Assembly (NCBI RefSeq): GCF_900156345.1
Contig: NZ_FTPP01000005.1
Location: 62,001-126,000 of the forward strand
Direction: 5' to 3'
Source: Pontibacter indicus
GTDB taxonomy: Bacteria; Bacteroidota; Bacteroidia; Cytophagales; Hymenobacteraceae
DNA: 64,000 nt
Shown piece by piece: positions 1,594 through 5,645 of this stretch (within the stretch, counting starts at the first letter, position 1; every line of letters begins with the position of its first letter). The position numbers and the translations under genes are program-made. Below the pieces are notes generated by a model. It saw only the letters and a list, made by a program, of their open reading frames with translations, was not told the DNA's origin and made no database searches.

Positions 1594-2772
1594 CTACTTC
1601 AGAAGTTCGAATATGCCGGCTACGCCTTGACCGCCGCCCACGCATGCCGTTACGATGCCGTGCTTGCCACCGGTGCGGCGCAGGTCGCTGAAGAGCTGCA
1701 CGCTCAGTTTGGCACCAGAGCATCCCAGCGGGTGACCTAGCGCAATGGCACCTCCGTTGATGTTCAGTTTCGCCGGGTCAAACTCCAGGTGACGCATCAC
1801 GGCAATAGACTGAGCCGCGAAGGCCTCGTTCATCTCGATCAGGTCGATGTCGTTGAGAGTCATACCGGCTTGTTTCAGGGCTTTCGGCACAGCGGCTATT
1901 GGGCCCATCCCCATGATGCGTGGGTCCACACCGCCAGTGCCGTAGCTTACCAGGCGGGCAATCGGCTCCAGGTTCAGCTCTTTTACCATGCGCTCGCTCA
2001 TCACGATCACAAAGGCAGCACCATCCGAAGTTTGCGAAGAGTTACCGGCTGTTACCGTACCGCCGTTCGCAAACACGGGCTTTAGCCTGGCCAATGCCTC
2101 CATCGAAGTATCGGCACGCGGACCTTCGTCGGTGTCTACCACATAAGAGCGGGTCTTTTTCTTGCCGTTCTCATCTACATAAGTTTCCTCCACTGTGATC
2201 GGCACGATCTGGTCTTTGAAGTAGCCGTTCTTGATCGCGTTGATCGCCTTCTGATGGGAGTTATAGGCGAACTCGTCCTGGTCTTCACGTGTAACCTTGT
2301 AGTCCTGGGCTACTGCCTCTGCCGTAAGGCCCATGCTCAGGTACCAGTCCGGGTTCTTTTTGGCGATGTTGTAGTTGGGCACCGTCTTCCAGCCAACGGT
2401 CGGCACCAACGACATCGACTCGGTACCACCGGCTACGATACAGTCGGCCATACCTGCCTGAATACGATTGCAGGCAATGGCAATGGTCTCTACACCCGAC
2501 CCGCAGTAGCGGTTCACGGTCATACCTGAAACGGACATTGGTAAGGCTAGCAGTGAAATCATACGGCCGATCTGGAGGCCCTGCTCTGCTTCCGGCACGG
2601 CGTTTCCTACGATCAGGTCATCTACGCGCTCCGGGTCAAGAGCCGGCACAGAGGCCATCAGGTGCTTGATAACATCAGCGGCCAGGTCATCGGGTCTGGT
2701 GAACCGGAAACCTCCGCGGTTGGCTTTACCAACGGCGCTGCGAAATCCGGCTACGATATAGGCATTGTTCAT
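1594..2772 (-). CDS. fadA: acetyl-CoA acyltransferase (thiolase)
   Basis: Performs the thiolytic cleavage of 3-ketoacyl-CoA, the last beta-oxidation step. The 392 residues match normal thiolase length. The nucleophilic Cys lies in [12 protein letters not shown] (C90). The C-terminal motif [15 protein letters not shown] carries the catalytic His (about H347), and [11 protein letters not shown] carries the second Cys (about C377). All three catalytic residues are therefore present. It follows the multifunctional dehydrogenase/hydratase gene on the same strand, but the GIY-YIG element is inserted between them. The fadA symbol is by function; the exact ortholog name in Bacteroidota is less certain. 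Confidence 0.93.
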
Positions 2773-2818
2773 ATTGATGCTCTTTATAGTTTATACTATC
2801 AGCTGTATTTCATTTTTA

Positions 2819-2860
2819 TTTTGTCATCCTGTAAGGATCTTGGTTGCTGGGAGATGAAGC
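2819..2860 (+). repeat. left arm of inverted repeat flanking GIY-YIG gene
   Basis: This 42-nt arm contains TTGTCATCCTG, then AAGGATCTTGGT, then GGGAGATGAAGC. It pairs with 3171-3212 in inverted orientation (32/42 matches). From memory, sequences of the type GTCATCCTGAAAGGATCTTGG are abundant intergenic repeats in many Bacteroidota genomes, which would make this a member of a wider family. I cannot verify that here. Confidence 0.7.
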
Positions 2861-2866
2861 TTTTAT

Positions 2867-3163
2867 CTACGGATCTGCCTTCAGAAATCGTAAGTATGGA
2901 TTCTCTCTTTTGATTAGCTCCATCTTCTTCTCACGACTCCACTCCTTCAACTCTTTCTCTCTATCGATTGCATGCTGTACATAAGTATAGCGTTCATAGT
3001 AGAGTAGCTTGTAACAGAAGTAGCGGCCTGCAAAAGTTTCAGGTTTGCCTCGGTTGTCCTTATGCTGTTCAAGCCTGTACACTAAGTCATTTGTAACTCC
3101 CACATAAAGCACCGTTTTGCTTGGATTGGTCGTGATGTAGACAAAGTAATTGTGGCTTTTCAT
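2867..3163 (-). CDS. small GIY-YIG endonuclease (UPF0213-type)
   Basis: A 98-residue single-domain protein. It starts with KSHNYFVYITTNPSKTVLYVGVTNDL, in which YFVYI and YVGVT correspond to the GIY and YIG strands. The catalytic-core Arg is in DLVYRLEQHK. A downstream Glu in IDREKELKEWSREKKMELI fits the metal-binding Glu of the fold. The C-terminus NPYLRFL resembles the NPxW/NPxL end of UrvC-like small nucleases. The gene stands alone between two operon genes and is enclosed by inverted repeats. Members of this family are scattered singly in Bacteroidota genomes; whether this one acts on its own repeats is inference. Confidence 0.88.
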   Translation of the reverse strand: MKSHNYFVYITTNPSKTVLYVGVTNDLVYRLEQHKDNRGKPETFAGRYFCYKLLYYERYTYVQHAIDREKELKEWSREKKMELIKRENPYLRFLKADP

Positions 3164-3170
3164 AGCTGGG

Positions 3171-3212
3171 GCTTAACCTCCCTTCTACCAAGTTTCTTTC
3201 AGAATGACAAAG
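3171..3212 (-). repeat. right arm of inverted repeat flanking GIY-YIG gene
   Basis: Read on the minus strand this arm is CTTTGTCATTCTGAAAG followed by AAACTTGGTAGAAGGGAGG and TTAAGC. It ends 7 bp before the nuclease start codon, so any transcript of the gene that begins upstream carries it in its leader and could pair with the 3' arm. Confidence 0.7.
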
Positions 3213-3242: not shown

Positions 3243-5645
3243 TTAATTTCTCAGCGGCTTGCCTGTGGTCAGGATGCTCTGGATACGCTCCAGCGTCTTG
3301 CGCTCACCGGTTAGTGACAGGAAGGCTTCGCGCTCCAGGTCCAGCAGGTACTGCTCGCTCACGTCGGTTGGGGCAGACAGATCGCCACCGCACATCACAT
3401 AAGCAAGCTTTTGCGAGATCTTCAGGTCGTGCTCCGACATGTAACGCCCCGTGAACATGGCGTTGGCTCCCGTCAGGAACATACCCAGACCGCCCTTGCC
3501 CTGCACCTTGATGTTGGTGCGTTGCACCGGCTTGGTATAGCCCGCCTCCGCCAGTCGGATAGCCTGTGCCTTGGCATCAGCTATCTGGCGGTTGCTGTTG
3601 ATAGAGATACCATCTGACTTACGCATGAAGCCCAGGTCAATCGCCTCTTTGGCCGAAGTAGAAACCTTGGCCATACCGATGTTGAGGAACACGTTCTTCA
3701 GGTCGTTCAGCTCGATGTCGCCGTCTGCGTACATGTCGGCTGCGCGCAGCGTCATTTCTTTGGTGCCGCCACCGCCAGGTATAAGGCCTACGCCAAATTC
3801 CACCAGACCCATGTAAGTCTCGGCAGCCGCTTGGATGTGGTCCACGTGCAGGTTCAGCTCGCAGCCACCGCCCAGCGTGAGGCCATGCGGTGCGCCTACC
3901 ACAGGTATAGCCGAGTAGCGCATGCGCATCATCGTGTTCTGAAACTGGCGGATGATCATGTTCAGCTCGTCGTAATCCTGATCGAGCGCATACATGTAGA
4001 TCAGGCCCACGTTGGCACCGGCAGAGAAATTGGCACCCTGGTTACCTACCACCATGCCACGGAAGTCTTTCTCGGCGAACTCGATGCCTTTATTCAGCGC
4101 CATGATCACGTCGCCGCCCATGGTGTTCATCTTAGTATGGAACTCCACGTTCAGGATGCCGTCACCAATGTCAGTTATAGTCGCTCCGGTGTTTTTCCAG
4201 ACAACTTTGTTCTCGCGCAGGTTATTCAGAATGATGAAGTTCTCGGCGCCAGGTATAGCCTTGTATTCTTTGCTCTGGATGTCGTAGTAGCGGCGGTTGC
4301 CGTTGTCTACAATGTAGAAGGATTCCTTGCCGCGCTCCAGCATTTCCTCTACCCAACGGGCAGGCTGGTAACCGGCTTCGATCATACGCTGCACCCCTTC
4401 GCGAGCACCGATCACGTCCCAGTATTCGAACGGACCCAGCTCCCAGCCAAAGCCGGCACGCATGGCATCATCGATGCGGTAGAGTTCGTCAGAGATCTCA
4501 GGTATGCGGTTGCTCACATACTGGAACAGGCCGTAGAGTGACTCGTTGAAGAATTGAGCAGCCTTGTCGTTTTGCTTCGAGAAAGTCTTTACACGCTTCT
4601 TCAGGTCCTCGATCGGTTTTAGTACTTCCAGACTCTGGAACTTGGCGCGCTGTTTCGGTCCGTACTCCAGCGTGTTCAGGTCCAGCGTCAGGATCTCGGT
4701 TTTGCCCTGTGCATCTTTTGTTTTTTTGTAGAAGCCCTGGCCGGTCTTATCGCCCAGCCATTTGTTCTCTACCATTTTCTGGAGGTAGCCTGGCAACTGG
4801 AACAGTTCGCGCGATTCGTCTTTTTCGCCGGTCTGGTACAAGCCGTTGGCTACGTTCGCCAACGTATCCAAACCAACCACGTCCAGTGTGCGGAAAGTGG
4901 CGGATTTCGGACGGCCGATTATTGGGCCAGAAATGCGGTCCACTTCGTCCACGTTCAGGCCGAGCTTGTTCATCACCTGCAGGCCCTGCATGATGGCGTA
5001 AATGCCCACACGGTTGGCGATAAAGGCAGGTGTGTCTTTAGCGAGTACGGTAGTCTTGCCCAGGTATAGGTCGCCGTAATGCATCAGAAAATCCACCACA
5101 GCCGGATCGGTTTCCGGCGTCGGGATGATCTCGAGCAGCTTGAGGTAGCGCGGCGGGTTGAAGAAGTGCGTACCGCAGAAGTGCTTGCGGAAGTCGTCGG
5201 AACGGCCTTCCAGCATCAAGTGAATAGGTATACCAGAGGTGTTGGACGTGATCAGGGTGCCCGGCTTGCGGTACTGCTCTACTTGGTCAAACACTGATTT
5301 CTTGATCTTTAGGTTCTCCACCACCACCTCAATGGTCCAGTCGGCCGTGGCGATCTCCTTCATGTTGTCCTCGAAGTTGCCGGTCTGAATCAGGCGGGCA
5401 TCGCTTTTGCGGTAAATCGGCGAGGGGTTGGATTTCAGGGCAGCCTCCAGCGCGCTGTTCACGATGCGGTTGCGGACCTGCTTGCTTTCCAGCGTCAGCC
5501 CTTTTTTCTCTTCGTCGGGCGTAAGCTCGCGCGGCACGATGTCGAGCAACAGCACCTGCACGCCAATGTTGGCAAAGTGGCAGGCAATGCGGGAGCCCAT
5601 GACACCGGAACCCAGCACGGCTACTTTCTTAATAATTCTTTTCAT
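3243..5645 (-). CDS. fadB: 3-hydroxyacyl-CoA dehydrogenase / enoyl-CoA hydratase fusion
   Basis: An 800-residue bifunctional enzyme that hydrates enoyl-CoA and oxidises the 3-hydroxyacyl-CoA. The dehydrogenase half is N-terminal. It has the NAD-binding GSGVMG at 12-17 and the catalytic His in GTHFFNPPRYLKLLE (H160), with the partner Glu about 12 residues later. The crotonase half is C-terminal. Its Glu residues are in LTLGGGCELNLH and VEFGVGLIPGGGG, matching the two catalytic Glu of enoyl-CoA hydratase. The domain order is the reverse of E. coli FadB and is usual for this Bacteroidota/Gram-positive type, so the symbol is functional only. The gene follows the MarR gene after 26 bp. Confidence 0.92.
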   Translation of the reverse strand: MKRIIKKVAVLGSGVMGSRIACHFANIGVQVLLLDIVPRELTPDEEKKGLTLESKQVRNRIVNSALEAALKSNPSPIYRKSDARLIQTGNFEDNMKEIATADWTIEVVVENLKIKKSVFDQVEQYRKPGTLITSNTSGIPIHLMLEGRSDDFRKHFCGTHFFNPPRYLKLLEIIPTPETDPAVVDFLMHYGDLYLGKTTVLAKDTPAFIANRVGIYAIMQGLQVMNKLGLNVDEVDRISGPIIGRPKSATFRTLDVVGLDTLANVANGLYQTGEKDESRELFQLPGYLQKMVENKWLGDKTGQGFYKKTKDAQGKTEILTLDLNTLEYGPKQRAKFQSLEVLKPIEDLKKRVKTFSKQNDKAAQFFNESLYGLFQYVSNRIPEISDELYRIDDAMRAGFGWELGPFEYWDVIGAREGVQRMIEAGYQPARWVEEMLERGKESFYIVDNGNRRYYDIQSKEYKAIPGAENFIILNNLRENKVVWKNTGATITDIGDGILNVEFHTKMNTMGGDVIMALNKGIEFAEKDFRGMVVGNQGANFSAGANVGLIYMYALDQDYDELNMIIRQFQNTMMRMRYSAIPVVGAPHGLTLGGGCELNLHVDHIQAAAETYMGLVEFGVGLIPGGGGTKEMTLRAADMYADGDIELNDLKNVFLNIGMAKVSTSAKEAIDLGFMRKSDGISINSNRQIADAKAQAIRLAEAGYTKPVQRTNIKVQGKGGLGMFLTGANAMFTGRYMSEHDLKISQKLAYVMCGGDLSAPTDVSEQYLLDLEREAFLSLTGERKTLERIQSILTTGKPLRN

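Follow-up and report, generated by a model that had tools for sequence, protein, structure and literature searches.

A GIY-YIG nuclease gene framed by tagged palindromes: a probable minimal REP/RAYT-like element in Pontibacter and other bacteria

The 64,000-nucleotide stretch of Pontibacter indicus DNA analysed here (the window; contig NZ_FTPP01000005.1, positions 62,001 to 126,000) raises the question of why a small nuclease gene, enclosed by a pair of inverted repeats, lies inside a beta-oxidation operon. The gene (2867..3163, minus strand) encodes a single-domain GIY-YIG nuclease of 98 aa, as judged by PF01541, alignment, predicted structure and dN/dS. On one side lies a host thiolase gene (1594..2772, minus strand; PF00108, PF02803), and on the other a host FadB-type gene for a 3-hydroxyacyl-CoA dehydrogenase/enoyl-CoA hydratase (3HCDH/ECH; 3243..5645, minus strand; PF02737, PF00725, PF00378). 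These domain matches confirm the position between fadB and the thiolase gene that was given in the initial annotation. The host thiolase leader, GATAGTATAAACTATAAAGAGCATCAAT (2773..2800, minus strand), lies outside the element, and a similar leader is found at the bare sites of relatives.

The left arm, on the 3' side of the nuclease gene (2820..2860, plus strand), was placed by the inverted repeat and its position. It carries an outward GTC tag (2823-2825) followed by the palindrome ATCCT-GTA-AGGAT (2826-2838), whose 5-bp stem is perfect and of the type found beside clade A relatives. The right arm, on the 5' side (3171..3211, minus strand), was placed by the inverted repeat and folding; its outward GTC tag is on the minus strand (3208-3206), and its stem is imperfect (ATTCT...AGAAA). 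TGTC-AT is present in both arms, and the tail is CTTGG. In a gapless alignment 32/41 positions are identical (32/42 over the 42 nt originally proposed), and the arms are 6 bp from the stop side and 7 bp from the start side of the gene, exactly the enclosure that had been claimed. The alignment score of 23 was equalled by 0/2000 dinucleotide shuffles (shuffle maximum 15). The window arms thus form terminal inverted repeats, a feature by which IS and MITE elements are recognized. An automatic repeat search at default settings reported no inverted pair. Single-arm folding energies are uninformative: for the 24-nt cores, z was -1.5 and 0.4 relative to shuffles, and neither arm folded notably better.

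To characterize the nuclease, the window ORF was compared with PF01541, which it matched with an E-value of 1.8e-13 and 51 bits (curated cut-off 22.6). All 30 aligned family members (30/30) matched this model at E <= 0.001, and Y9, Y20, R30, H34 and E69 are invariant in the 30-row alignment; we take the conserved Tyr, Arg, His and Glu of the GIY-YIG domain to be catalytic residues. The structure of the 98-aa protein was predicted with a pLDDT of 94.5. A Foldseek search returned 1zg2 (UPF0213 BH0048), Slx1 and the UvrC N-domain as the nearest PDB entries, with a best E-value of 2.4e-3 and none at E <= 0.001; the predicted fold of the catalytic domain is what the protein would share with UPF0213-type and Slx1/UvrC nucleases. 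Slx1 is a structure-selective nuclease acting on branched DNA, in agreement with the titles of the PDB entries. Among eight copies, dN/dS was 0.02-0.10 in 27/28 pairs (dS was high, and one pair was undefined), indicating that the protein is kept by strong purifying selection. Several copies of the gene carry stops. Phage carriage of the element was considered and dropped, as the window protein had no match in the phage collection searched.

Framing by palindromes was then assessed across the family. We scanned 250 bp on each side of the genes for GTC-AT-NNN and N'N'N'-AT separated by a loop of 3-45, with the tag pointing outward. After removal of 4 loci with short or masked flanks, 76 of the 80 loci encoding relatives were usable. 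A palindrome was found upstream in 48, downstream in 57 and on both sides in 40 of them, compared to 10, 4 and 0, respectively, among 498 distal window pairs of the same loci. With any of ten scrambled tags or five altered inner dinucleotides, no locus (0/76) was framed on both sides. When no palindrome was presupposed, 130/188 outward GTCAT words near the genes were palindromic, versus 85/806 far away and 222/3760 when the downstream sequence was shuffled. A chance origin of the arms is ruled out by these word counts, the distal-window controls and the dinucleotide shuffles.

The framing extends to further samples; as the 76-locus, Pontibacter and other-phyla samples overlap, the counts were not summed. 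Each of twenty further Pontibacter members (20/20) had at least one flanking palindrome, whatever its side or orientation, and in 8/20 outward palindromes flanked the gene on both sides. Across several phyla, 22/30 loci from 11 genomes were framed on both sides and 26/30 on any side. In Alphaproteobacteria the values for both sides were 10/29 for best hits, 4/20 for middle hits and 1/20 for distant paralogues, and those for any side 22/29, 14/20 and 3/20; members without any arm made up 7/29 of the best and 6/20 of the middle hits. From a plasmid collection we examined 12 of the 32 matching records, picked for variety: seven were framed on both sides, nine on any side and three not at all. The framed records include Neisseria gonorrhoeae (2.17 Mb, classed there as a plasmid), Planktothrix and Aeromonas, with S. 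meliloti framed on one side; the armless ones are Novosphingobium aromaticivorans, R. tumorigenes and a Sphingobium. A typical arm in these records is CGTCATCCCCGCGAAGGCGGGGATCCAGG. The unit interrupts another operon in Azospirillum lipoferum 4B (AZO_p3, L408): a family member (1498-1791) lies between sufB and sufC and is framed by two identical CGTC repeats.

Repeats might simply gather in any dispensable intergenic region, with the nuclease gene merely among them; they lie mostly outside long ORFs, and any small spacer gene could acquire such neighbours. This is very unlikely indeed given the controls, and we consider it the least probable of the explanations weighed here. The distal windows are not framed, nor are other GIY-YIG genes (0/20 distant paralogues of Pontibacter) or Y1 transposase genes of Pontibacter (1/20, a long-loop and probably chance match), and where a genome has two paralogues, each goes with a stem type of its own. 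One of the distant GIY-YIG paralogues, of a type widespread in the genus, is found in the source genome itself (L004, G000:C8:1028693-1028923; 35% identity); twenty other paralogues of this type have no repeat arms. As far as these samples go (0/20 in Pontibacter, and both sides in 1/20 in Alphaproteobacteria), lack of framing also sets UPF0213-type and Slx1/UvrC nucleases apart from the family.

The initial annotation had likened the arms to abundant intergenic repeats. Dispersal was indeed observed: with up to 3 mismatches, the arm pattern had 19 matches in the source genome (G000), compared to 0 for a control read backward, and the repeats lie mostly outside long ORFs. A second copy of the unit (at G000:C7) has the same arms, and its ORF contains 2 stops. 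The same genome has a relative with 64% identity that adjoins a different palindrome, GTCATTTCGA...GAAAT. A search for the arms with and without the gene, as had been proposed, recovered facing pairs that lack it. One of them (L010) reads as the unit minus its ORF. Three more in another Pontibacter genome (G048) belong to the same stem group, and their inner sequence (GGAGGTTAAGC or GCTACCAAG) is common to gene-bearing units. On the evidence of their sequences, the gene-less pairs look like the element after deletion of its gene.

To delimit the element, we compared six pairs of copies, each from the same genome. In five of them the shared sequence stops 44-59 bp past the gene, which is the arm's end. 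In the window's own pair (C3/C7) it stops 92-96 bp past the gene, and about 40 bp of thiolase leader are common to both copies. On the start side sharing stops 0-68 bp before the gene, the beginning of the arm being about 46 bp upstream of it. At different sites, the sequence that copies share ends approximately at the arms, although the copy ends are not always exact. We considered, and dropped, an element extending past the left arm by about 45 bp; these bases are similar to the leader of the thiolase gene at bare sites, and the C7 copy therefore seems to have taken host flank along. No target site duplication was seen by eye, either at the copies or at the bare sites, all of them old or diverged.

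Counting of repeats in whole genomes requires a remark. Scanning with a three-base stem was noisy, with total hits of 41 in G048 C3 (12-43 for scrambled tags) and 24 in G000 C6 (13-45); the genome repeat counts reported here therefore rest on fixed patterns. In the alphaproteobacterial G145 C8, 74 hits exceeded those for scrambled tags (11-29), and a scan with a five-base stem gave 6 versus 0-5. Two other short sequences were noted in these surveys. The octamer AGGTATAG occurs 61 times in the window, where 1.9 are expected from base composition (about 30-fold over), and its 7-mers are equally enriched there (Markov expectation 52). It is found 428 times versus 11 in G000:C6:1-400000 and 325 versus 12 in G048:C3:1-400000; in G145 C8 the count was 9 versus 14 expected. 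Another perfect palindrome, GACAGGTCGCGACCTGTC, which is not of the GTC-AT type, recurs in Pontibacter spacers (L009, L332, L341, L344), with 5 sites per 400 kb in G048 C3 and 1 in G000 C6 (10 and 2 counting both strands).

We then turned to the same site in relatives. The fadB-thiolase spacer was resolved in 46/50 Pontibacter genomes, the window's genome included; in the remaining four, not resolved by the script, G004 was read separately as bare, and G041 has the gene beside thiolase by coordinates. Sixteen of the 46 spacers are bare (29-34 bp of leader), 15 are other spacers of 60-104 bp, 10 hold the unit, 3 hold repeats without the gene, 1 holds a nuclease remnant and 1 a longer unrelated insert. 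Two of the ten site copies (in G012 and G017) carry a stop. The presence of the unit in 10/46 resolved genomes indicates that the insertion at this site is old, though not universal. Operons without the insertion had been sought to define its exact ends; they exist, the site being bare in 16/46, but the ends of the copies are not always exact. The bare sites may represent the ancestral state or a deletion. The repeat-bearing spacers without the gene (L317, L315 and L324, of G016, G019 and G024) contain further short palindromes, e.g., CGGATTTGCAATCCG, indicating that repeats of different families accumulate at the same site.

The patchiness at this site bears on the idea of a domesticated housekeeping enzyme that would trim or resolve repeat cruciforms for its host, with the flanking repeats acting on its expression. 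The strong purifying selection (dN/dS 0.02-0.10) would fit such a role, as would the presence of the structure-selective Slx1 among the nearest folds of the predicted structure. However, a gene that is patchy at the fadB-thiolase site, has copies at many sites and includes decayed copies with stops argues against it, and its position between repeats is left unexplained. We regard this explanation as quite improbable.

Stem type and protein correspond. In Pontibacter, 52 loci were labelled as clade A or B by identity to the window protein, not by tree. Clade A had CCT, CTT or TCT (NNT) stems in 28/28 loci and clade B had TTC, CTC, TCC or CCC (NNC) stems in 22/24, the other 2 being without a stem. 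In the 10 genomes with loci of both paralogues that were compared, the stem types were never swapped. On a protein tree of 173 rows, 152 of them labelled and 21 without a stem label, stem type required 64 changes, compared to at least 95 in 200 label shuffles; 99/170 inner branches of this tree are open, and the label test leaves shared descent in. Without Pontibacter and Rufibacter the numbers were 54 and at least 63. Residue 75 is glycine in 14/21 loci with a mid-stem G and in 0/131 others. A tree-corrected pairs test of this W75G-stem association was not significant, and we therefore give it little weight.

The repeat load of a genome tracks the nuclease as well. Among 240 alphaproteobacterial genomes, 44/68 of those showing a strong hit to the nuclease had at least 5 repeats, versus 15/172 others (Fisher p 3e-18, species being non-independent in this test and the repeat pattern covering some stem types only). 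A strong hit was defined as E <= 1e-24, a cut chosen after viewing the list, in which the next best E-value was 1.2e-16. For genomes of at least 3 Mb, the values were 30/42 and 9/59. Counterexamples occur on both sides: at least 10 copies are present in 9/172 genomes that lack a strong hit, and the count stays below 5 in 24/68 that have one. Within Pontibacter, type-B repeats are more numerous where clade B is present (median 7.5 versus 0, p 7e-4). For type-A repeats and clade A the difference is weak (16 versus 8.5, p 0.046), and a close nuclease is missing from two genomes rich in type A, G021 (79 copies) and G034 (42).

These exceptions matter for the main rival, in which the nuclease is a homing gene. 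As a parasite targeting repeats it would land inside repeat pairs, and something else would spread the repeats. Homing enzymes occur among GIY-YIG nucleases, and they share with the window protein the same catalytic domain in mobile or selfish use. The NCBIfam model TIGR01453, for group I intron endonucleases, gives E <= 0.001 for 16/30 members of the family (4e-6 for the best of them); the window protein itself has no match to it. Repeat-rich genomes without a close nuclease, both the two in Pontibacter and the 9/172 in Alphaproteobacteria, also fit homing. In contrast to homing endonucleases, the window protein is a lone 98-aa domain with no added DNA-binding domain, and its gene lies in an intergenic spacer, not an intron, and is framed by repeats. 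The inner sequence of the gene-less pairs is common to gene-bearing units, as for deletion derivatives, and repeat load tracks the nuclease (44/68 versus 15/172); both speak against homing. The correspondence of paralogue and stem does not separate the two readings, because homing would keep it too. Overall, we consider homing unlikely.

Repeats resembling these were surveyed as CGTC-tagged REPs by Di Nocera, De Gregorio and Rocco (2013; PMC3733652). The survey describes repeats tagged by CGTC or TGTC, whose 8-9-bp stems almost always begin with AT, with loops of mostly 4-5, CCA tails and an arrangement as facing dimers; neisserial dRS3 and two rickettsial RPE families are included, and Novosphingobium aromaticivorans is among the hosts. 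The tag, the AT at the stem start and the facing dimers are shared by the repeats reported here, and the CGTC/TGTC tag with an AT stem start is found in the window arms and family-wide. Outside Bacteroidota the likeness goes further, as many alphaproteobacterial arms have long stems and end in ATCCA. The Pontibacter arms, however, have a 5-bp stem and a 3-nt loop and lack the CCA tail, and thus depart from the published stem, loop and tail. We call them CGTC-type and, given their shorter stems and other tail, do not place them in any of the four published families.

According to that survey, a dedicated transposase is apparently absent for CGTC-tagged REPs, and no Y1 transposase gene was found framed by them (PMC3733652). 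We nevertheless weighed whether Y1 (RAYT-type) transposases move the repeats, the GIY-YIG gene being a bystander. In its favour, a Y1 domain match is present in 43/50 Pontibacter genomes. Yet Y1 genes are framed in 1/20 only, by the long-loop match mentioned above, and no Y1 match exists in G048 despite its 78 type-A copies. We set this candidate aside since its genes are not framed by repeats; it has, in our judgement, a slim chance of being right.

REP/RAYT systems (REPtrons; REPINs) offer the closest parallel. There, too, short palindromes frame a small nuclease gene and many gene-less copies are spread over the genome. The differences are that the enzyme here is GIY-YIG and not a Y1 HUH transposase, and that the tag is GTC and not GTAG; the scrambled tag GTA-AT gave 0/76 on both sides. 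The unit works like a REPtron without being a member. The REP/RAYT logic is already known, and it is the enzyme superfamily that differs. Among the literature matches listed, judged by titles and the starts of abstracts and including few subscription papers and preprints, none linked GIY-YIG proteins to these repeats.

Taken together, we favour, with a probability of about 70%, the reading that the unit is a minimal REP/RAYT-like element, selfish or tamed by its host, in which a GIY-YIG nuclease gene lies within its own tagged palindromes and gene-less copies are non-autonomous. As its mechanism we infer that the nuclease binds and nicks the repeats, that the element moves, and that host repair takes part. 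Weighing against this reading are the inexact copy ends, the absence of visible target duplications, the mismatches between nuclease presence and repeat load, the family members that lack arms, the one distant alphaproteobacterial paralogue with arms on both sides, and the imperfect right stem and weak single-arm folding in the window. The suggestion of a REP/RAYT logic in the initial annotation was well founded and has turned out broader than guessed, as the dispersed arms, the gene-less pairs, the match of paralogue and stem, and the bare sites support it. A facing pair of tagged palindromes, each with an outward GTC and then a hairpin starting AT-NNN, would bound the nuclease gene, and loss of the ORF would leave gene-less pairs and single palindromes as non-autonomous copies. 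When a repeat becomes single-stranded or is extruded at a replication fork, the nuclease would recognise its own hairpin, with specificity presumably coming from the three stem bases after AT, and would nick beside the GTC tags. GIY-YIG chemistry is hydrolytic and does not join ends, which is why host replication and repair are invoked for the spread; through them the freed or copied piece could reach new sites.

For a repeat family that is widespread but has no known mobiliser, the GIY-YIG subfamily is a strong candidate partner enzyme. A wider proposal, which we advance tentatively and judge somewhat less probable than an even bet, is that of a pan-bacterial class of mobile elements built on a single hydrolytic GIY-YIG nuclease. 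Such an element, lacking any transposase, recombinase or polymerase, would spread its tagged palindromes through nicking, with host replication and repair completing the process, and the nuclease would be the missing agent of CGTC REPs, neisserial dRS3 included. For the CGTC-tagged repeats, a single protein subfamily whose specificity matches the repeats can now be named as a candidate, and the mobiliser question can be tested using a short DNA hairpin and an enzyme of 98 aa. Should this candidate be right, bacterial populations of REP-like repeats would be driven by a second, independent enzyme type as well, and a function could be assigned to many genes now annotated merely as 'GIY-YIG nuclease family protein'.
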